DNA of 32,400 bases, from positions 1 through 32,400 of the forward strand of contig JAANXH010000012.1 of assembly GCA_018263355.1 (NCBI GenBank). Reading direction: 5' to 3'. Of the stretch, positions 5,181 through 26,961 are shown piece after piece. The first letter of the stretch is position 1. Each line of letters begins with the position of its first letter. The notes under the pieces are model-generated. The model did not search any database and was not told where the DNA came from. It was given only the letters and a program-made list of their open reading frames with translations. The stretch is from Candidatus Woesearchaeota archaeon (lineage in GTDB: Archaea; Nanobdellota; Nanobdellia; Woesearchaeales; JAGVZT01). The translations under genes were made by a program, and so were the position numbers.

Positions 5181-5636
5181 GTTTTCTCGCCCCTAGATAC
5201 TTGTTCTTGATAGCTCACTTTGTTCGCACTGATTGAACGGAACTCCCCCTTGATGTATTGACTTGATGAGCCTTCGGCTTTGATGAAAAAAGAACTCCCC
5301 TCGATACTTGTTCTCTATGGCACTTCGTGCTTGAAGGAACGGAACTCTCCAGTGCTACGCACATGCTCAAAAATGGAACATTTTTGGCACGTAAAAATGC
5401 TACGCATTTTTTGTGCAAGAAAAACTTGGTTTTTCTTTGCATCCTAAAAATCTTTGATTTTTATGATATACACTCCCTACGGTCGAATTTATTGGAAATG
5501 GAAATTTTACTTTTCGGAACGAAATTTCCCAGAACTCCGCAAACATATCGTTGTAAATATTGATTGTGTAACTTGAAAGAACCTGCTTCTTAAAGTCGCT
5601 GTATTTCTTTAAATGTTTGCTCGTAACTGGGAAAGT

Positions 5637-5800
5637 ATTTAACAGGGCTTATACGGTTCGGAACGACCGCCTTCGGCTATTTTGCCAAGCAAAATTCGTT
5701 CCTCTCCCAAATGCTTTAATCTTCACCTTAACACTACACCCTAACCTACGTGTTGACACGCCTAGAAGTTAAATCACTTCGCATAAGCCCAATGTTATAT
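5637..5800 (+). repeat. attC-like site A (long)
   Basis: R''-like ATTTAAC (5637-5643), arm GGGCTTAT (5645-5652) pairing with ATAAGCCC (5783-5790), R'-like GTTATAT (5794-5800) followed by TCAATT. Confidence 0.6.
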
Positions 5801-5897
5801 TCAATTCTACGGTTATTAGGTTTTAAAAAAAAGCCAAAGAGGTAGAACTTTGCGGACGCAACTTTACCCCACTTTGTTTCACTCGTAGGGTAAAGGA

Positions 5898-6031
5898 ATA
5901 TAACACGAATTAAGCAGTTCACTCGTCGCTCGCCTCCTCGCTTCTCGTTCTCCAAAATTTAATTTTCCATCTCTGTTCCGCCTTCGGCTACACGAGGGAA
6001 AATCAAACTTCGCTTAATTCGGATGTTATGT
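5898..6031 (+). repeat. attC-like site B (long)
   Basis: ATATAAC (5898-5904), arm CGAATTAAGC (5906-5915) pairing with GCTTAATTCG (6012-6021), R'-like GTTATGT (6025-6031) followed by GCAATT. Confidence 0.65.
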
Positions 6032-6105
6032 GCAATTGGGCTACGGGGCGCTTAAATCTAAAATCATAACAAGATTTAAATAATAATTGAACTAAAGTAT
6101 ATTAT

Positions 6106-6936
6106 ATGATGAAAAAAATACTACTATTTACAATTTTAATTGTATTTGCTCTATCCCTTTCCGATTCTGTTTTTGCCTGTTCTCCTGCTCCAAATTATAT
6201 CAGTATTTCCTGTACTCCAACGAATACATTAGATGAAAATGAACTGCCTCAAGGATACAGATTTTACAATGAAAAACTAACATTATCTTCTGGTTACAAA
6301 TTTGAATCAGTTGATGAAAACTTTGATTTCCTAACATCTAACTGTCAAGAAGATGTTGAATCTGTAAAACCAGAATTGATAAATTTGTTTAAGGAGTACA
6401 ATTCGAAAGAACACAGATACTTTACTCATGAAAGAACAGAAATTGTCCCTTATGACGAAACCTTAATTGAAAATAATAAAAATAGCAGATACAACCCAGA
6501 TAATGTAGGTAATTGTTATTTTGAAAATGTTTACAAACTTGGTGATTTTGTAGTTAATGAGGGTGGTATGAGAGATTATTGTCATTTAACAGGTGGAGGT
6601 GGTGGAATGTGTCCTCACGCCACAAAATTACATTTACAATTTTTTGGATTTATATTAACCAATCCAAATGTTAATACACTCCCATATTTATTTGGTTATT
6701 TGATTGCAATAGGCGTTGTTATTGGTTTCATAGTATATCTTTTTAAAAGAAAAGAATTGAAATTGTTTTTCAAACCAAATAAATTCAATATCATTTTCAC
6801 TTTGGTTTTAGGTATTCCAACATTTTTGTTATTTTTACTGTTTACAGGGATAGAGCAAATTATTGTTTGGATTATTGGATATTATATTTTTTCATCAACT
6901 ATAAAATATATTTATTTAAGACTTAAGAAGAAGTAA
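6106..6936 (+). CDS. cassette ORF: secreted/membrane protein, unknown function
   Basis: 276 aa, N-terminal signal-like segment, two C-terminal TM segments; lies between attC-like sites B and C. Confidence 0.7.
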   Translation: MMKKILLFTILIVFALSLSDSVFACSPAPNYISISCTPTNTLDENELPQGYRFYNEKLTLSSGYKFESVDENFDFLTSNCQEDVESVKPELINLFKEYNSKEHRYFTHERTEIVPYDETLIENNKNSRYNPDNVGNCYFENVYKLGDFVVNEGGMRDYCHLTGGGGGMCPHATKLHLQFFGFILTNPNVNTLPYLFGYLIAIGVVIGFIVYLFKRKELKLFFKPNKFNIIFTLVLGIPTFLLFLLFTGIEQIIVWIIGYYIFSSTIKYIYLRLKKK

Positions 6937-7013
6937 CGGGCCCCTTCGCCCGACTTTCTCCGCTTCGCTCCGAACCCCATTGCATTCTCACTTCGCTACG
7001 CTTCGTTCGGGTC

Positions 7014-7039
7014 ACTTAACAAGGATCCTGATGTTAGTT
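7014..7039 (+). repeat. attC-like site C (short/collapsed)
   Basis: ACTTAAC-AAGGATCCTGAT-GTTAGTT followed by TCAATTTT; arms meet in palindrome AGGATCCT. Confidence 0.5.
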
Positions 7040-7067
7040 TCAATTTTCAAAAATCCTAAAAACTAGA

Positions 7068-8126
7068 AAGGGAAGGGGAACAATCTAATAAAATGTAGAA
7101 TCTTTGTTTCCAGATTCAACATCTGCATTGCATCTTGAGATAGACCTTTCAACTGCAGTTTCTTTAACACCGTTACCCAATTGCATATTATCACAAATAG
7201 AAGAGTCTTGAGTGTCTACTGCAATATTTCTATAGCATTCATACTTCAAGGCAGAATTTGCAATTCTTGAACATACATTTGAATTTAATACGTCCTTTGC
7301 TATATTGAACATACATACATCAAGATTATCTGCATTTTCACATTCAGATAAATCAACTTCAAAAGATAAACATTTTTGATTTAAATCAGGATCAGTTATT
7401 TTTGAACAAGATTTAAGTCCTAAAAAACATTCATCTTTGATTTTATCCCAAGCGATATCTTCACATATTGTTTCATCTTCATTGTTAATTGCAATATTTT
7501 TTATACATTCCGCATAAAAAGTTCCGGATTTACCTTTAATATTCTCACACAATTCAATATTTAAGGATGTATAAGATATTCCAAGATAACATTGATCTTC
7601 CGTAGTATCTCTTTCAATTAACTTACATTTTGAAAAATCAGATGTTGTTCTTGCTACTCCTTTATAGCACACTTCTTTACTTAGTTGCGTTTGGAGTTTA
7701 TTGCAAATTGATATATCTCCTACTTCAATTCCAACAGTAGAATAGCATTCATATTTAAAATCAGTATCAATGTAATCACAAATCTTAACTTCTTTTTCTT
7801 GAACTGCGATATCTATATAACAGTTATACCTTGGATAAGAAATTGCAAGACCTTTTTCAATTAATGGTAATTTATCACACCCTTGTAACCTAGGATCATT
7901 ATTAGTGGGTAATTCATTAGTTTGATTGTCGATGGATTCTTGGGTATTTTCTTTAGGTACATCAATAACAGGAGTTTGAGTATTACATCCGATGATGATT
8001 AATATCATTATAACAAGAATCCCATATTTAAAATTATATTTGAGGTTCATAATACAATATTTTTTATTAAGTATTTAAATAATTCTATAGTTTCTCGAAA
8101 TGGAAGTTATTTGTTCCCCTTCCCTT
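7068..8126. repeat. cassette-specific inverted repeat pair bracketing the cassette 3 ORF
   Basis: AAGGGAAGGGGAACAA (7068-7083) and TTGTTCCCCTTCCCTT (8111-8126), perfect 16 bp. Confidence 0.85.
7085..8050 (-). CDS. cassette ORF: Cys-rich repeat lipoprotein, unknown function
   Basis: 321 aa; lipobox-like IIGCN; recurring C-x(n)-C units of about 30 aa (e.g. ICDYIDTDFKYECYSTVGIEVGDISIC). Confidence 0.75.
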   Translation of the reverse strand: MNLKYNFKYGILVIMILIIIGCNTQTPVIDVPKENTQESIDNQTNELPTNNDPRLQGCDKLPLIEKGLAISYPRYNCYIDIAVQEKEVKICDYIDTDFKYECYSTVGIEVGDISICNKLQTQLSKEVCYKGVARTTSDFSKCKLIERDTTEDQCYLGISYTSLNIELCENIKGKSGTFYAECIKNIAINNEDETICEDIAWDKIKDECFLGLKSCSKITDPDLNQKCLSFEVDLSECENADNLDVCMFNIAKDVLNSNVCSRIANSALKYECYRNIAVDTQDSSICDNMQLGNGVKETAVERSISRCNADVESGNKDSTFY

Positions 8127-8217
8127 AATTCTTTAACATTTAAGGGGCTTCGCCCTTTAAGACGGATTTTTGAAAACTTTTCGGGCGAAATTTTTCCATA
8201 CGTTGTATGGAAAAAGA

Positions 8218-8243
8218 AACTAACAAGGATCCTGATGTTAGTT
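8218..8243 (+). repeat. attC-like site D (short/collapsed)
   Basis: AACTAAC-AAGGATCCTGAT-GTTAGTT then ACAATTT; same core as site C. Confidence 0.5.
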
Positions 8244-8320
8244 ACAATTTAGTTTAAGTTTAAACGTTCTTTTAGAAAAAGAACCAAAAAAAGAGTTGGG
8301 GCAAATTAAAAAAGAAAATC

Positions 8321-8328
8321 TTATAAAT
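8321..8328 (+). promoter_or_regulatory. possible archaeal TATA box for the cassette 4 ORF
   Basis: TTATAAAT about 25-30 bp upstream of the ATG at 8351. Confidence 0.45.
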
Positions 8329-8350
8329 TAGTGAAATTCTTAAGTATTTA

Positions 8351-9493
8351 ATGTTAAAAAAATATATTAAAAAATATTATTTTCAAACATTACTAGTAAT
8401 TACTTTAATTCTTATAGTAATTTTGATATTTAATATAAATAATTTGAATAATAAAATTGAAAATCAGAAAAAAGAATTAGAGAACCGCAATGAACAAATA
8501 TCAAATTTAAACAAAGATATTTCAAATCTTAATATTTCTTTTAATCAATTAAAATCTGAAAAACAGAATTTAGAATCTGAAAAACAGAATTTAGAAATAA
8601 ATTTTGAAGAATTAGATGAAGAATATTCAAATTTAAAAGATGAAACAAACTTATTATTGAGCGATATTAATACTTATCAAGAAGAAATTGAAGAATCTTT
8701 AGAATGGTATAAAATAAACTCCTTGTTAGATGATAACACCGAACAAAAAAGAGTCAAAAGACAAATTGATAATAATTGTGTTGAAATTAGAAACAATGAA
8801 TGTAAAATTAAATTAGGATGTTTTTATTTAATAAATTCAGAAAAATTAGATTTAGAATATAAATACGACGAAACAATTTATGAAAAAGAGGATAAGCTAA
8901 CTTCAATTAAAGATTTTTTAAAAAATGATGGTGGTGATTGTGAAGATTATTCTTTGTTTTTCAAAGCAGAATACAATTATGCTTTAAATCAATGTGAAGA
9001 TAATAATATAGTACTAGAAGGATGGAAATATCCAAATTCGGAAGATAGAGAAACAAAATATTGGTTAAATTTTCAAAAAAGTTGGTATTTAGATGATGTT
9101 GCAAAAGTAGAAATAAAAGATAATATTTATCCAAATATAATTTGTGGTAATTTATATGATCCGATACTTGGAGATGTAGCAGGTCATTGTATGATTGCGT
9201 ATACTCAAAATGAAATAAAATCAATAAATGATTTATCAGAATTAGATAATGCATATATAATAGAACCACAAGACGGTTCTTTTCAAGGAAACATAAATAG
9301 AGAAAATAGTGAAGTGTATTTGTTAAATGAAGATATTTGGTATGATGAAAGTGTTAATTCTTGGATTTATTCTATAATCACTGATAATGATTATTTTTTA
9401 TTTAGTGAATCTGATTTAGATTGGAATTCATATTCTTTATTTAATTCCCATCTGAACACAAAGAAAAATGAATTATTATATTTGTTAAATTAA
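8351..9493 (+). CDS. cassette ORF: membrane-anchored coiled-coil protein with transglutaminase-like Cys peptidase domain
   Basis: 380 aa; N-terminal TM, coiled coil, then GGDCEDYSLFFKA (Cys), AGHCMIAY (His), AYIIEPQDG (Asp/Glu region) in the order of a transglutaminase-like triad. Confidence 0.65.
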   Translation: MLKKYIKKYYFQTLLVITLILIVILIFNINNLNNKIENQKKELENRNEQISNLNKDISNLNISFNQLKSEKQNLESEKQNLEINFEELDEEYSNLKDETNLLLSDINTYQEEIEESLEWYKINSLLDDNTEQKRVKRQIDNNCVEIRNNECKIKLGCFYLINSEKLDLEYKYDETIYEKEDKLTSIKDFLKNDGGDCEDYSLFFKAEYNYALNQCEDNNIVLEGWKYPNSEDRETKYWLNFQKSWYLDDVAKVEIKDNIYPNIICGNLYDPILGDVAGHCMIAYTQNEIKSINDLSELDNAYIIEPQDGSFQGNINRENSEVYLLNEDIWYDESVNSWIYSIITDNDYFLFSESDLDWNSYSLFNSHLNTKKNELLYLLN

Positions 9494-9640
9494 TATTAAA
9501 AAAAGCCCCAACTCTTTAGTCCTTCGGACATATAGTCTCCTTCGGAGAAATTTATCTAAACTTAAACTAAACTCTTCGGGATTTTTTCACTTCGTGAAAA
9601 ATCGTTGCACTATCCCTTGGTCGTCGTTGCACTCCGACGC

Positions 9641-9745
9641 AACTAACAAGGATTTAGAGGTTCCAGAAACTTGCAGACTTCTCCATCCAAATTCGGTTTT
9701 GTGGGTTGCCTCAAAACCGAACTTCTCTTAATCGCAATGTTAATA
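9641..9745 (+). repeat. attC-like site E (long)
   Basis: AACTAAC (9641-9647), GGATTTAGAG arm vs CTCTTAATC near 9725-9733, internal perfect hairpin TTCGGTTTTG/CAAAACCGAA, GTTAATA (9739-9745). Confidence 0.55.
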
Positions 9746-9750
9746 GAAAT

Positions 9751-10558
9751 AAAAATGAATTTTCTTACCCACCCAATAGGACGCGCGCAAGTTTTCCTGA
9801 CGGAAAACAGATAGTCTGCTATCGCAGAAAATAATATAAACTTACTTAATTTCATTATGAATATGTCTACTGAAAAAGCAGAAAGTGTTAGGGAAACGGA
9901 GAAAGCTCCGCCAATCTACCAGGTTTATATCAAAAAAGAGAAAGAATGGATTGAAAGAAAAATAACACACACAAAATCCTTAATTGATGTTGGTTGTGGT
10001 GAAGGTAGAGCAACAGCGTTTCTCTCCCCTTTAACTGATAAATATGTTGGGATAGATTTAAATTCAAAAGCAATATCCAAAGCAAAAAAATTAGAAAACA
10101 ACAAAATAGCTTTCAAAGTTGTTGATGTTACAAAAATGTCTGAGATTTTTCCAGAAAACGCTTTTGAAACAAGTATGTGTCTTTGGAATACTATAGGAAA
10201 TATTGAAAAAGACAATAAAGCGATCGAGGAAATGTATAAAATCACATCTGAAAAATGTTTTATAACAACCTTGAAAAGAGGAAATCTAAAAGAGAGAACG
10301 AACTATTATAACTCCTATGGTGTAAAATTTGAAGTGGATGAAGAAAATGAAATATTCTATTCAGATGCTTGGGGAATTTCTAGATCATATGATAAAGAAG
10401 AGTTCAAAAAAATGTGTGAAGCAGTGGGCTTCAAAGTTGTTGAAATAGTTGATTTGGGAAAAATTGCTTTTGGTATTGAACTAAAGAAATAATCTTCTTT
10501 TAGAAAAAGAAGCAAAAGCGCGCGTCAAATTTAATACCCACCCAGAAAATTCATTTTT
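9751..10558. repeat. nested inverted repeat pair bracketing the cassette 5 ORF
   Basis: AAAAATGAATTTTCT (9751-9765)/AGAAAATTCATTTTT (10544-10558) and GACGCGCGC (9780-9788)/GCGCGCGTC (10518-10526); ACCCACCCA lies between them in direct orientation on both sides. Confidence 0.85.
9857..10492 (+). CDS. cassette ORF: class I SAM-dependent methyltransferase
   Basis: LIDVGCGEGRATAFLSPLTDKYVGIDLNSKAI motif I. Confidence 0.85.
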   Translation: MNMSTEKAESVRETEKAPPIYQVYIKKEKEWIERKITHTKSLIDVGCGEGRATAFLSPLTDKYVGIDLNSKAISKAKKLENNKIAFKVVDVTKMSEIFPENAFETSMCLWNTIGNIEKDNKAIEEMYKITSEKCFITTLKRGNLKERTNYYNSYGVKFEVDEENEIFYSDAWGISRSYDKEEFKKMCEAVGFKVVEIVDLGKIAFGIELKK

Positions 10559-10615
10559 ACTCTCTCCGCTATGCTCCGAGCCACGCCTTGCAGGCTCTCG
10601 GCTTCGCCTCGGGTC

Positions 10616-10637
10616 TATTAACAGCGCGATGTTATAC
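10616..10637 (+). repeat. attC-like site F (short/collapsed)
   Basis: TATTAAC-AGCGCGAT-GTTATAC followed by GCAATTTT. Confidence 0.45.
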
Positions 10638-10642
10638 GCAAT

Positions 10643-11316
10643 TTTTGGGCTCGGCGACTTAGAAAAATCTATTAGCTCTTTTGAATAACTTTAACATTTT
10701 TAACTTCAGGATCTACTGTTCGCCTACCATCACCATGGTTTATCGGTTCATAACCAAATGGAGAATAAAGTAAACAGTCTCTTCTCCAAAGACAAGGATC
10801 ATGTGTAAATTTGATAGGTGGATAATATCCTCCCCTATCACCTGCAGAATCTGTTCTATTTCTTTGAAATTGGTCTTTAGAAACTGCTATTTCCACCATA
10901 TCTCCTACATTTATCTGATCGGCCAATTCACTTAATTTTTTCGATGCTTCTTTGTACCTCTCTACTAAGTGATCTTTTGGCACATCATCATAGTATGATG
11001 TATGAAGACCTAAACCAAAGATTAAATGAGTTATCCCCCTATAACTATCTCTTACAGAATCATCCAAAGTTATACTACAATCTATACCTTCATAATCATA
11101 CAATTCTCCTTGATAAGAATGGTCTCCTGTAGGATCCCCCACAAATCTACATCTATTTCTGATTTTGGATTTACTCCTTATTGTAGCAGTAACCTTTTCT
11201 AAGTCTTCATTATCATTTTTTTGTGTCATAAGTATGGGTATAACTCCAAACTATTTAAACTTTTCTATATATTTACTACTTCTAAATTAATATAGATGAG
11301 TCGCCTTCGCCCCAAA
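10643..11316. repeat. imperfect inverted repeat pair bracketing the cassette 6 ORF
   Basis: TTTTGGGCTCGGCGACT (about 10643-10659) vs AGTCGCCTTCGCCCCAAAA (about 11298-11316). Confidence 0.65.
10672..11229 (-). CDS. cassette ORF: conserved-looking protein of unknown function
   Basis: 185 aa ORF with TATA-like element (TTTAAATAG) upstream on the minus strand. Confidence 0.65.
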   Translation of the reverse strand: MTQKNDNEDLEKVTATIRSKSKIRNRCRFVGDPTGDHSYQGELYDYEGIDCSITLDDSVRDSYRGITHLIFGLGLHTSYYDDVPKDHLVERYKEASKKLSELADQINVGDMVEIAVSKDQFQRNRTDSAGDRGGYYPPIKFTHDPCLWRRDCLLYSPFGYEPINHGDGRRTVDPEVKNVKVIQKS

Positions 11317-11374
11317 ACTTCTTCGGAATACTTCGCATTCCTCGACCACGTTGCACTTTCGCTTCGCTCAGGGC

Positions 11375-11400
11375 GTTGAACACGCATGCGAATGTTCAAT
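11375..11400 (+). repeat. attC-like site G (short/collapsed)
   Basis: GTTGAAC-ACGCATGCGAAT-GTTCAAT; extended palindrome TTGAACA/TGTTCAA around CGCATGCG. Confidence 0.45.
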
Positions 11401-11412
11401 TCGGGCAGGCAA

Positions 11413-11423
11413 AATTTATAAAT
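11413..11423 (+). promoter_or_regulatory. possible archaeal TATA box for the cassette 7 ORF
   Basis: AATTTATAAAT about 25 bp upstream of the ATG at 11445. Confidence 0.45.
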
Positions 11424-11444
11424 ATTTTCAAACAATCTTAAATT

Positions 11445-12083
11445 ATGAGCATTATTAAAAAAGATTATGATAAGAATTATTTTGAAAACGCTTTCTATAA
11501 AGAGAAGCCCGAATCTCAAAGAAATAGAAACCGTATCAGAGAACTAATTAGACATAAGAAACGCGGTAAATTATTAGAGGTTGGATGTGGGGAAGGAAAT
11601 TTTCTTAAGGAAGCCGAAAAATACTTTGATATTGAAGGAGTTGAATTCTCTAAATATGCCACAAACAAGGCAAAGAGAATATTGGGAGATAATGTTAGCA
11701 GAGGAAATATTGAAAACATCTCGTTGCAACCAGCTTATTATGATGTGATTATGGTATTTAATTTACTGGAACATCTAGGGGAACCAATGAAAACTATTAA
11801 GAAATTATTCGATGCCCTTAAAGAGGGAGGTATTCTAATAGGATCTGTTCCGAATAATTTTGGAATTATTGGAGGATTGGCGACAGCGCTTTCAAATATA
11901 ATTGACAAGACCCACTGCTCAACCTATTCTCCTAGTATTTGGCATGAATATTTTACAGAAAGTGGTTTTAATGAAGTACAATTTTTTGGCGAGATTACCA
12001 TCGGAAGAAACAGGAGTTTTTATGTGAAAAATATATTTTGGAAATTCATATCGTTTAATTTGATTTTTGTTTGTAAGAAATAA
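11445..12083 (+). CDS. cassette ORF: class I SAM-dependent methyltransferase
   Basis: LLEVGCGEGNFLKEAEKYFDIEGVEFSKYA; FNLLEHLGEP. Confidence 0.85.
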   Translation: MSIIKKDYDKNYFENAFYKEKPESQRNRNRIRELIRHKKRGKLLEVGCGEGNFLKEAEKYFDIEGVEFSKYATNKAKRILGDNVSRGNIENISLQPAYYDVIMVFNLLEHLGEPMKTIKKLFDALKEGGILIGSVPNNFGIIGGLATALSNIIDKTHCSTYSPSIWHEYFTESGFNEVQFFGEITIGRNRSFYVKNIFWKFISFNLIFVCKK

Positions 12084-12148
12084 TTTTGCCTGCCTGAACT
12101 CTGAAATTTCCCTTCGGGACGTTGCACTAAATTTCAGCCCTTCGGGGA

Positions 12149-12173
12149 ATATAACAGTGCGCAAACGTTATAC
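12149..12173 (+). repeat. attC-like site H (short/collapsed)
   Basis: ATATAAC-AGTGCGCAAAC-GTTATAC followed by GCAATT; TGCGCA core. Confidence 0.5.
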
Positions 12174-12422
12174 GCAATTAAATTTTCACTAGTCTAAATC
12201 TCATTCTTTTTTTAAAAATGCTCAGAAAATCTTGTTTTCTGGCACCCTAAAAATTTTTGATTTTTATGGAAGAAGCAAAAGAGGGGGAGTCCAGGTGCTA
12301 CGCACACGCTCAAAAATGGAACATTTTTGGCGTCCTAAAAATCTATGATTTTTATGATATTGCCTTTTACTTGGTAAAAGAAATTTATGATAAGATTTAT
12401 TAATAAAGTACTATCACTATAA

Positions 12423-12986
12423 ATGATGATGAATAAACTATTGCTTTTAACTACACTATTGATTTTATTTATTATGCCTGTTTCTGTCTTAGCACTTCCT
12501 AATTCAGATACAAGTAAAAGTGGTGATGTTTGCGAAAGAGAACATAGTTTTAATTATAACTATAATTTTAATTATGATAAAGAATTAGAAATTAACAAAG
12601 AATATCAATTAGAATTATCTTTTTCAATTAGTGGCTCAAAAATAACAAGAAATCCTTATAAAGTAAGCATTGAATTAGAGCCAAACGGATTTGAATTAAG
12701 TCAAAATAGTATTTCACTTTCACAAGGAAATAAAATAATTGGCATAACTCCTATTAAAAAGGACGCTTCAATAATTGTAAATACAAAATTAGTTTTAGAT
12801 GGGGATGCTAGTCAACATAGAGGATATAAAGCTACATATAAAGATAAATTTACATTAGATCAATTTTTTATTTATGAACCAAAAACAAAATCAAAAAATA
12901 CAAAATCCAATAATTTATCAATTGTTCCTTTTCAAACATATCATATCCAATATCTAAGAATAAATAAATCTTTTCAAACTAGTTAA
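12423..12986 (+). CDS. cassette ORF: secreted protein, unknown function
   Basis: 187 aa with N-terminal signal-like sequence. Confidence 0.6.
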   Translation: MMMNKLLLLTTLLILFIMPVSVLALPNSDTSKSGDVCEREHSFNYNYNFNYDKELEINKEYQLELSFSISGSKITRNPYKVSIELEPNGFELSQNSISLSQGNKIIGITPIKKDASIIVNTKLVLDGDASQHRGYKATYKDKFTLDQFFIYEPKTKSKNTKSNNLSIVPFQTYHIQYLRINKSFQTS

Positions 12987-13016
12987 TTTTTTAAATAATT
13001 AGAAGATATATATCAC

Positions 13017-14072
13017 ATGGAAAAATCAACTAAAAATAAGGTATTAAAGGTTTTCTTGGCCTTGATATTAATTATAATTATGATTTTAGTAATATGTTGT
13101 GGAAGGCGTGATAAAAAAATAAATGAGCCTAATGAACCCCCACTAAAGCCTCCAGAACCGCCAAAACATAAAGAAGAACCAATAAAAGATTTTGGAGAAC
13201 CTTTAACAGAATTAAGTTCAGGAACCCACCAGTTATCTATTAAAATGCAGGATAATAAAAACACATTTCAAGAAGGAATACAAGTTGAAAGGCATTACTT
13301 AGTTCATTTGCCTACAGGATTTAATCCAAATAATAATTATGATTTAGTAGTATTTTTTCATGGAACAACAGGAACATCTCAAAAATCATTACAGGATACA
13401 GAATTTGATGATTTAGCAAACCAAGAGAATTTTATTATGGTATTTCCACAGGGAATGGGAACTTCAAATAATATTAATGAAGTATTTACTGGGGATAATA
13501 TACAAAAGAACACATGCTGGAACATAAGACCTGATGCAGAGCCAGATAATAGATGCTATGCAAGTTCAAGAAAACCAGATGACGATAAATTCATAAATGG
13601 AATAATAACTAAATTTAATAATGAATTAAATATAAACAAGTTATTTGTATCTGGATTTTCTAATGGTTGTGGCATGGCTCAGCATATAGGATTAACAAGA
13701 ATAGATATTAATGCAATCGGAATTGGTGGATGTTCAGTTCCAGGACAGGATTTCTTAGATAGAAGAAAATCAATACCAGTATTAAGGTTTCATGCCACAG
13801 ATGACCCTGTATCAGAATATATGTCTATTAATGAAGAACTTCCTCAAGGCATAGTACCAACAGCTGAATTAGCAATTGATGGATATGCAGATTTAAATGA
13901 TTGCTCTAAACCAGCAGATAAAGAAGAATTAAACATAGGTAATTTTGAGATAGAACATTGGACTTATCCTAACTGTAAAGAAGATACAGAATTTTATAAG
14001 ATTGAAGGTGGAAGTCATATATGGTATTCTGCTATAACACCAATTGTATGGGATTTTTTTGAGAAGAATTAA
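13017..14072 (+). CDS. cassette ORF: PHB-depolymerase/feruloyl-esterase-like alpha/beta hydrolase, membrane-anchored
   Basis: VVFFHGTTGTSQ, CWNIRPDAEPDNRC, nucleophile elbow GFSNG, HATDDPVSEY, GGSHIW. Confidence 0.85.
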   Translation: MEKSTKNKVLKVFLALILIIIMILVICCGRRDKKINEPNEPPLKPPEPPKHKEEPIKDFGEPLTELSSGTHQLSIKMQDNKNTFQEGIQVERHYLVHLPTGFNPNNNYDLVVFFHGTTGTSQKSLQDTEFDDLANQENFIMVFPQGMGTSNNINEVFTGDNIQKNTCWNIRPDAEPDNRCYASSRKPDDDKFINGIITKFNNELNINKLFVSGFSNGCGMAQHIGLTRIDINAIGIGGCSVPGQDFLDRRKSIPVLRFHATDDPVSEYMSINEELPQGIVPTAELAIDGYADLNDCSKPADKEELNIGNFEIEHWTYPNCKEDTEFYKIEGGSHIWYSAITPIVWDFFEKN

Positions 14073-14169
14073 AAAATAAACAATATTTAAAAGTACCTAA
14101 ATCTCTTTTTTATTATGGAGAATATAATTGTATTTGTAGCACATAGTCAACACTCTCTGGGATAAATAT

Positions 14170-14403
14170 ATGTGGGAATTGAGTTTAAAAGAAATATTTT
14201 GGTTCGATTTTTCATCAAAAATTAATATCCTATTATCCTTAGGAGTATTAGCTTTTTATTTATTAATTATAATAATATTTACATCAATCACTCCAAAAAT
14301 AATTCAAAAAATAAAATTTAAAAGATGGAAAAAATTCATCTATTATTATATATTTCATTTATTCTCGTTATTATTCATAGTCTTTTTTTGGGAAGTGATT
14401 TGA
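14170..14403 (+). CDS. small membrane protein (possibly frameshifted with the next ORF)
   Basis: 77 aa hydrophobic ORF overlapping 14325..14528 in another frame. Confidence 0.35.
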   Translation: MWELSLKEIFWFDFSSKINILLSLGVLAFYLLIIIIFTSITPKIIQKIKFKRWKKFIYYYIFHLFSLLFIVFFWEVI

Positions 14404-14528
14404 ATATTATACAAAATAATTCAATAATAACAATCTTATCGTTCGCAGTGTTTGCAGCATTTTCATTATTAACAATTTTATTTTTAATCATTCGTTTTTT
14501 AATTAAAATTAAAGGAGTAAAAAGATGA
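14325..14528 (+). CDS. small membrane protein (possible continuation of the preceding ORF)
   Basis: 67 aa hydrophobic ORF; 4-nt overlap with 14525..14869. Confidence 0.4.
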   Translation: MEKIHLLLYISFILVIIHSLFLGSDLNIIQNNSIITILSFAVFAAFSLLTILFLIIRFLIKIKGVKR

Positions 14529-14869
14529 TAATTTGGGGAATAATTCATATAGTACTTTCTTTAATTGCATATATAGGTTACATATTTGTAACTATAAAGT
14601 CATTTACTAAAAAAAATTACTTGATTTTATCGATTTCAAATATATTATATTTTATTGGATTTTTATCAGGAATGATTTGGGCAAAATTAGAATGGGGATT
14701 TTATTTAAATATGGATATAAAAACTATTCTATCAATAGCATTGTTTATACCTTTTTTTATTGAAAACATATCAAAAACTAAAAAAAATTATTGGCTACTA
14801 TTGGGAACTTTGATATTAGTTCTTAATTATATATTACCGTTAATCATTGGCACTTTACATTCCCATTGA
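14525..14869 (+). CDS. multi-pass membrane protein, unknown function
   Basis: 114 aa, several hydrophobic segments. Confidence 0.55.
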   Translation: MIIWGIIHIVLSLIAYIGYIFVTIKSFTKKNYLILSISNILYFIGFLSGMIWAKLEWGFYLNMDIKTILSIALFIPFFIENISKTKKNYWLLLGTLILVLNYILPLIIGTLHSH

Positions 14870-15016
14870 TTATAAAATAATAAAATCTGGACTCCCCCTC
14901 ATCCTACGGACATATAGTCTCCTACGGAGAAATTTATTATCGTGAAAATTTAACTCTTCGGTTTTCCTTCGCTTCGCTACGGAACGTTGCACTAAACCTT
15001 GGTCTCTTCGAGACGC

Positions 15017-15132
15017 GTATAACAGGGTTTAAAGGGTTCACTCACCTTGCAGGTTCGTTCTCCCAATTTTTTTATTCGAGGTCGCTACGCTCCACTCTGA
15101 ATAAAAAACTTCCCTTAAACCCGATGTTATTT
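15017..15132 (+). repeat. attC-like site I (long)
   Basis: GTATAAC (15017-15023), GGGTTTAA-A-GGG (15025-15036) pairing with CCCTTAAACCC (15112-15122) leaving one unpaired A, internal TTTTTTATTC/GAATAAAAAA hairpin, GTTATTT (15126-15132), then TCAAT. Confidence 0.7.
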
Positions 15133-15275
15133 TCAATCGTCGTGTAGATTTATTAAAGGGGGGGGTTTCCGCCTTTAGTCCTAACGGACATTTAGCCTTT
15201 TTCTACGAAAAAGAATTTATTGGGGGGATTTCCTAAGTCCTAACGGACAATTTGTCTTTTACTTCGTGAGAAATA

Positions 15276-26368: not shown

Positions 26369-26961
26369 AGTTTTCTTGCCCCTTGATACTTTATTATGAC
26401 GTCATGAAAATCAAAAATTTTCAGGATGGCAAAAAGCTATAGTGTAGAAACATATTATTCGGATGTGTTGAAAAATATACTGATGATGAAGGCAGCGACG
26501 GTCATGCTCTGCATGCCCTATTACGTTTTCTGACGAAAACTCCATCGCGCCACCATCAGTATATTTTCCGAATATTTAGTACTTATACTAGTGCTTTTTG
26601 AGCATATCAGCTTCGCTTCTTTTGATAAACTCCACTTCTTGCCCTTAATGTATTTCCTTCAAGGCTCACTTTGTTCCCTCGATTGGAGAGAATTCCCTAA
26701 AATATAGTCTCCCTTCAGTCGAATTTATTGGGAACTCAAATTTCACTTTGCGGACGAAATTTTCCCATACGTTGCATGGAAAAAGAACTTAACAGGGTTT
26801 AAAGGGTTCATTCGTCGTTCGCCAAGCTCACTCCTTATTCTCCCAAATTTTTTGCTACGCAAAAAACTTCCCTTAAACCAGATGTTAGTCATAATTAAAT
26901 TTAAGTTTCTATTGGGTAAAAAAGGGAATTCTCTTTAAAATAGATGGGGGGCAAGAAAACT
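26369..26961. repeat. inverted repeat pair flanking attC-like site J (no ORF inside)
   Basis: AGTTTTCTTGCCCC (26369-26382) and GGGGCAAGAAAACT (26948-26961), perfect 14 bp. Confidence 0.8.
26787..26890 (+). repeat. attC-like site J (long, solitary)
   Basis: ACTTAAC (26787-26793), GGGTTTAA-A-GGG pairing with CCCTTAAACC (same unpaired A as site I), internal TTTTTTGC-TAC-GCAAAAAA hairpin, GTTAGTC (26884-26890). Confidence 0.7.

Follow-up and report, generated by a model that had tools for sequence, protein, structure and literature searches.

A cassette array of a probable integron-like system in DPANN archaea, with XerA-family integrases heading related arrays

The window, by which we mean the whole stretch of 32,400 nucleotides of archaeal DNA analysed here, holds nine attC-like sites between positions 5641 and 15134, all on the plus strand, whose presence was confirmed by reading the sequence and by a purpose-made site detector with a score threshold of at least 12. 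The sites have the form NNNNAAC-A-arm..arm'-RAY-GTTANNNNCAAT, with the 5' box also given as NNNNNAAC-A, and are either long (A, B, E and I) or short palindromes (C, D, F, G and H). Site A (5641..5802, AAC at 5641 and GTT at 5794, the span covering AAC..GTT plus the R' extension) reads AACA-GGGCTTATACG..CGCATAAGCCC-AAT-GTTATATTC and site B (5902..6033, AAC 5902, GTT 6025) reads AACA-CGAATTAAGC..GCTTAATTCG-GAT-GTTATGTGC, with detector scores of 16.9 and 18.4, respectively. Site E (9645..9747, AAC 9645, GTT 9739) is long with imperfect arms, AACA-AGGATTTAGAGG..CTCTTAATCGC-AAT-GTTAATAGA, and the array closes with the long site I (15021..15134, AAC 15021, GTT 15126; score 17.4), in which a single A is left unpaired when GGGTTTAAAGGG is set against CCCTTAAACCC. 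The short sites C (7018..7041, AAC 7018, GTT 7033; AACAAGGATCCTGATGTTAGTTTC) and D (8222..8245, AAC 8222, GTT 8237), both returned by the site detector, have the core AAGGATCCTGAT in common; F (10620..10639, AAC 10620, GTT 10631) is the shortest, AAC-AGCGCGAT-GTTATACGC, while G (11379..11402, AAC 11379, GTT 11394) and H (12153..12175, AAC 12153, GTT 12167) read AAC-ACGCATGCGAAT-GTTCAATTC and AAC-AGTGCGCAAAC-GTTATACGC. An earlier note on this DNA had described nine sites of uniform orientation and eight intervals, one of them without an ORF (here c1) and seven with ORFs (here c2 to c8), as well as the unpaired A of site I; all of these features are present, and the uniform orientation is that of the plus strand.

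The eight cassettes between these sites are all read on the plus strand, and c2 to c8 hold ORFs of unrelated kinds in either orientation; Pfam recognises two methyltransferases and one esterase-like protein, and several other proteins have no family over the cut-off. Cassette c1 (5794..5904) comprises 111 bp without an ORF, and c2 (6025..7020) encodes a 276 aa protein without a Pfam family over the cut-off (6106-6936, plus strand). Cassettes c3 (7033..8224; 7085-8050, minus strand, 321 aa), c4 (8237..9647; 8351-9493, plus strand, 380 aa) and c6 (10631..11381; 10672-11229, minus strand, 185 aa) have one ORF each, and the methyltransferases are encoded by c5 (9739..10622; 9857-10492, plus strand, PF13649, 6.5e-11) and c7 (11394..12155; 11445-12083, plus strand, PF13489, 1.8e-21). 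Cassette c8 (12167..15023) contains four plus-strand ORFs at 12423-12986, 13017-14072 (esterase-like, PF02230, 2.3e-06), 14170-14403 and 14525-14869. Ordinary chromosomal genes flank the array, encoding a PEP-utilising enzyme, a GNAT protein, a P-type ATPase, an aminotransferase, DsbA and a ferric reductase. A 62-nt direct repeat (81% identity) lies left of site A (5352-5413) and at the left end of c8 (12295-12356), and the first long-site cassette of another genome, G182, starts with a similar stretch; an eroded cassette may form the array's left border.

The sites of the window exceed chance. In the 1.17 Mb genome to which the window belongs, the pattern RATGTTANNNNCAATT occurs seven times forward, five of them inside the array, and never in reverse, and a reversed-pattern control also gave none; matches on contigs C33 and C60 were judged to be chance after reading. 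Likewise, the detector returned 87 matches scoring at least 12 across 41 loci vs none in reversed sequence. Both strands of the sites fold, and in A, B, E and I the bottom strand does so with slightly higher stability. Outside the array, a lone tenth site of the long type (26791..26892, plus strand, AAC 26791, GTT 26884; score 12.3) lies between a MarR-like gene and the ferric reductase gene (region 26380-26960), and matches a site of genome G042 at 80% over 191 nt in an alignment that ends at +3 after GTT. Its flanks pair with each other across the site (AGTTTTCTTGCCCC near 26385 with GGGGCAAGAAAACT past the site), those of the array sites do not, and the lone site resembles a complete hairpin of cassette ends that has no cargo.

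Same-strand clusters of such sites occur in many genomes of the window's order: the pattern ACTTCNNWWADNNNYRAYGTT, the 3' half of the long sites, was found in 126 of 353 genomes, with few matches in the control, and also in other orders of the class (for example in G360, G381 and G376). The order's maximum, 43 matches, is reached in G304, where they are spread over many short contigs that often end at sites; most of the compared genomes are probably metagenome-assembled, with many contigs. Core lengths in the arrays are bimodal, 8-15 nt and 68-178 nt with one core of 48, and the same arm types recur across distant genera. Among 96 long sites there are 38 distinct 5' arms, and the two arms covary, 10.31 of 11 positions pairing vs 6.68+-0.16 when arms are reassigned. 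The earlier description of the boxes as RYYYAAC and GTTRRRY-like stood only in part: the AAC/GTT sites are real, but of 135 sites just 58 and 45 obey these strict forms, and TAAC (128) with GTTA (130) is the better fit.

The first bases of an integron cassette derive from its own circular attC, and should therefore pair with the cassette's own last R box and not with that of its neighbour. In 80 cassettes, we tested the 6 nt that follow GTT for complementarity to the 6 nt that precede the AAC of the same cassette. Within cassettes, 4.81 of 6 positions match and 46 of the 80 match perfectly (Wilcoxon p 6e-9), whereas the value across sites (3.08) resembles that of shuffled partners (2.90+-0.12). 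In the window, c1 (ends GTTATATTC..GAATATAAC, 6/6 within and 4/6 across the site), c3, c5 and c8 (ends GTTATACGC..GCGTATAAC) match at 6/6, and c2, c4, c6 and c7 match imperfectly. High own-end pairing combined with random pairing across sites indicates that neighbours have been reassorted at the GTT boundary. Of the refuting conditions named in the earlier note, two were examined in relatives and did not hold: cassettes reassort, and breakpoints fall at GTT (below).

The complementarity reaches well beyond the R box, since in most cassettes the left ~110 nt can pair with the right ~170 nt; when set against foreign pairs, 55 of 75 cassettes lie past the 95th percentile and 51 past the 99th (p 7e-31). 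Inverted arms of this kind are found in c3 (7068-7083 / 8111-8126, AAGGGAAGGGGAACAA; score 16 vs at most 8 against other cassettes), c4 (8248-8262 / 9557-9571, TTTAGTTTAAGTTTA), c5 (9750-9765 / 10544-10559, TAAAAATGAATTTTCT) and c7 (11404-11416 / 12082-12094). For all eight cassettes of the window, the folded junction of the circle is more stable than the integrated site, as judged against mononucleotide shuffles only.

Breakpoints between relatives are located at the GTT as well, where the earlier note had placed the crossover. When 115 sites with their flanks were aligned all against all, 69 alignments ended at +3 after the G of GTT and 43 at +11/+12, where the partners share CAAT, with no more than nine at any other position near GTT; a few run the opposite way, starting at about -22 and continuing into the next cassette, such as that of window site I with the first array site of G107. 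A contig of G280 (3,066 bp) matches a single cassette of G279 with 100% identity and ends no more than 33 nt from the GTT at both sites, and one gene, which we take to be YdeI-like, is a cassette in G189 and G118 and free-standing in G185 and G280. Cargo in relatives includes defence functions, as the cassette after the first site of the G107 array (L096:8319-11046) encodes a restriction endonuclease of the XcyI family and a DNA methylase.

In relatives, the array begins beside a divergently transcribed tyrosine recombinase gene, and mostly an attI-like site with the consensus AATAGGTGTTANNNNCAAT, directed into the array, is found between them at 24-155 bp from the start of the integrase; Candidatus Woesearchaeota archaeon Bin_423 is a named case among the matches listed. 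This integrase-head layout, with attI and/or sites, accompanies 12 of 12 core array integrases vs none of 16 XerA controls. Within clade I it was seen for 12 of 14 array-type integrases, the maximum-likelihood tree placing the two others (L097 and L111) apart from the core clade, and within clade III for 3 of 12. The attI-like motif, directed away from the integrase, was counted at 10 clade I array loci and at 0 of 16 XerA loci; as it was read from the same loci in which it was later counted, the independent parts of this comparison are the array sites and the XerA controls. Integrase and array share one contig in only part of the array genomes, because contigs often end at sites.

Read from sequence comparison, the unit boundaries, the GTT breakpoints, the reassortment of neighbours and the integrase-attI-array layout in relatives are evident, and end pairing, breakpoints and layout all support the earlier proposal of integron-like cassettes in an archaeal genome. 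We put at roughly 85% the probability that the nine sites and their cassettes belong to an integron-like system of DPANN archaea which works with a XerA-family integrase and occurs both in the window's order and in at least some further orders of its class.

A canonical integron, in which the attC sites would be ordinary, an IntI would act in trans and the Xer-like neighbours would be incidental, is improbable. It would account for the site logic (AAC/GTT boxes, hairpins and GTT breakpoints as in attC), and archaeal IntI and attC have already been reported (Ghaly et al., 2022; PMC9668308). However, the head of the arrays is occupied by XerA-family enzymes and not by IntI, GTTRRRY fits only 45 of 135 R' boxes, and none of the 353 genomes of the order contains an IntI above the curated TIGR02249 cut-off. 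That model aligns with the array integrases in two segments that skip their middle part, always below the cut-off, and the best NCBIfam ranking of these enzymes is the archaeal XerA type (NF040815). The catalytic residues R-K-H-R-H-Y are invariant in ten aligned array integrases, and the spacing from the K-R motif to H.LRH is 57-69 residues, like in XerA, vs 105-107 in IntI-type proteins from bacteria; the array integrases are without the IntI insertion of ~40 residues. The bacterial IntI-type proteins form a clade of their own (support 100/100), and array integrases and XerA of the same genomes fall in separate clades. The closest solved structures are XerA (4a8e, from Pyrococcus abyssi, and 5hxy), followed by IntI4 (2a3v). 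The array integrases belong to the same NCBIfam family as archaeal XerA but differ from it in having attI sites and arrays. Xer-like recombinases from Flavobacteria/Saprospirales (L177, L180, L181 and L184) group beside the archaeal array integrases with support of 47/82, and among the matches listed no sites comparable to the array sites were found at the set threshold beside bacterial Xer/IntI proteins.

Even less probable is a row of transposons or MITE-like units that end in terminal inverted repeats, in which each GTT..AAC segment would be one element. The matched inverted repeats that reach well inside the cassettes agree with this idea, yet Pfam finds no transposase among the cassette ORFs of the window, the units are joined at hairpin sites and a site moves together with the unit before it, matches spanning the upstream part and the arms and stopping at GTT, and the attI with its divergent head integrase would go unexplained. 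A shufflon, in which a Xer-type invertase flips invertible segments, would fit the inverted ends, the Xer-like enzyme and the minus-strand ORFs of c3 and c6; it is very improbable, as inversion would flip sites and every array is uniform in orientation at the set threshold, no opposite-strand site lies upstream of the head integrases, and the units carry unrelated cargo. Least credible of all are structured terminators or other RNA elements between operons, for which the strong hairpins in AT-rich intergenic DNA would speak, since no Rfam family was found for the sites and neither sharp GTT breakpoints between genomes nor cassette-specific end pairing would be expected without recombination.

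In the integron-like system that we favour, the array integrase (~270 aa) would recognise the folded hairpin of a site, by analogy as a single-strand substrate, cut it at G^TT and exchange strands. Excision would turn the cassette into a circle that brings its two complementary ends together, the junction forming one long hairpin from outer stem, R boxes and inner arms, and re-entry would take place at another site or at the attI next to the integrase gene. We infer that a free cassette exposes one long composite hairpin which is split upon insertion, and this hairpin might favour capture over excision.

Much of this organisation is familiar from integrons, which spread antibiotic resistance genes in bacteria. 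Bacterial and archaeal IntI integrons (PMC9668308; class 1 and Vibrio integrons) likewise have a divergent integrase followed by attI and a cassette array, AAC..GTT boxes with hairpin sites and a G^TT crossover, cassettes whose first bases pair with their own terminal R box, and commonly arrays without an integrase. Of the features by which an IntI-defined integron is recognised, an attI-like site beside the integrase is present in relatives, and a G^TT crossover with cassette ends forming one R box pair is backed by comparative evidence, but an intI with the insertion near patch III is absent. The arrays further differ in boxes that follow TAAC/GTTA more often than strict RYYYAAC/GTTRRRY, in their bimodal sites that include palindromes of 8-15 nt, in the CAAT after the R' box, and in cassette ends that are complementary for tens of bases past the R box. 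Use of folded attC by a tyrosine recombinase has been held to require the IntI-specific insertion, and to our knowledge every known integron uses an IntI-type recombinase, unlike the enzyme beside these arrays. We lean towards, with less assurance than for the array itself, a separate integron lineage that is run by XerA-family integrases without the IntI insertion and is widespread over the DPANN class, in which cassette ends form the long composite hairpin only in the circle, so that free cassettes and integrated sites would be structurally different substrates.

If true, archaea with tiny genomes would have a system of gene exchange that spans a whole class, and a complete integron layout with an enzyme lacking the IntI insertion would allow a test of whether integrons arose from Xer recombinases. 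Search tools based on IntI would miss such integrons or call them CALINs. In the literature that we searched, which covered few subscription journals and no bioRxiv preprints, Ghaly et al. (2022) was the only paper on archaeal integrons as such, and none joined Woesearchaeota and integrons.

The window's array itself has the makings of a CALIN, with nine sites, where at least two attC-like sites less than 4 kb apart and no integrase nearby are called for, and a largest gap of 2.86 kb. As the earlier note had stated for the window, there is no tyrosine recombinase, and this extends to the whole contig. The CALIN call thus stands as a cluster without an integrase and has to be amended in kind, for the arrays of relatives are headed by a XerA-family integrase: a recombinase that is not IntI, together with sites departing from canonical attC, argues for a CALIN of a non-IntI integron. 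Since the related complete loci use such an enzyme, rules based on IntI would probably call all of them CALINs at best. An archaeal IntI elsewhere in the genome, for which the earlier note had advised looking, was not found: the genome's two tyrosine recombinases are XerA, on contig C22, and a frame-broken array-type enzyme on contig C43 that is close to the clade III enzyme of G135. Completeness of the genome is estimated at 99.96%, so that a missing contig is improbable though possible. The window's array is best described as a CALIN, and the genome, which has only XerA and a broken integrase accompanied by degenerate sites, seems to hold a decaying integron of its own on C43; the only attI candidate of the genome is degenerate, too. 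Read by eye, the C43 locus (~10100-11400) contains the broken integrase, the candidate attI TTTCGCATATATAGAGTTATACACAAT and the degenerate sites AACAAGGATTATACACAATATTACTCC and AACAGAGGTTATATCCAATATTACTCC, followed by a small lipoprotein-like ORF. On contig C33, three copies of another intergenic repeat, GATACCATARCAAAC...GTTT, at ~13490, 15206 and 16458, are apparently unrelated to the arrays.
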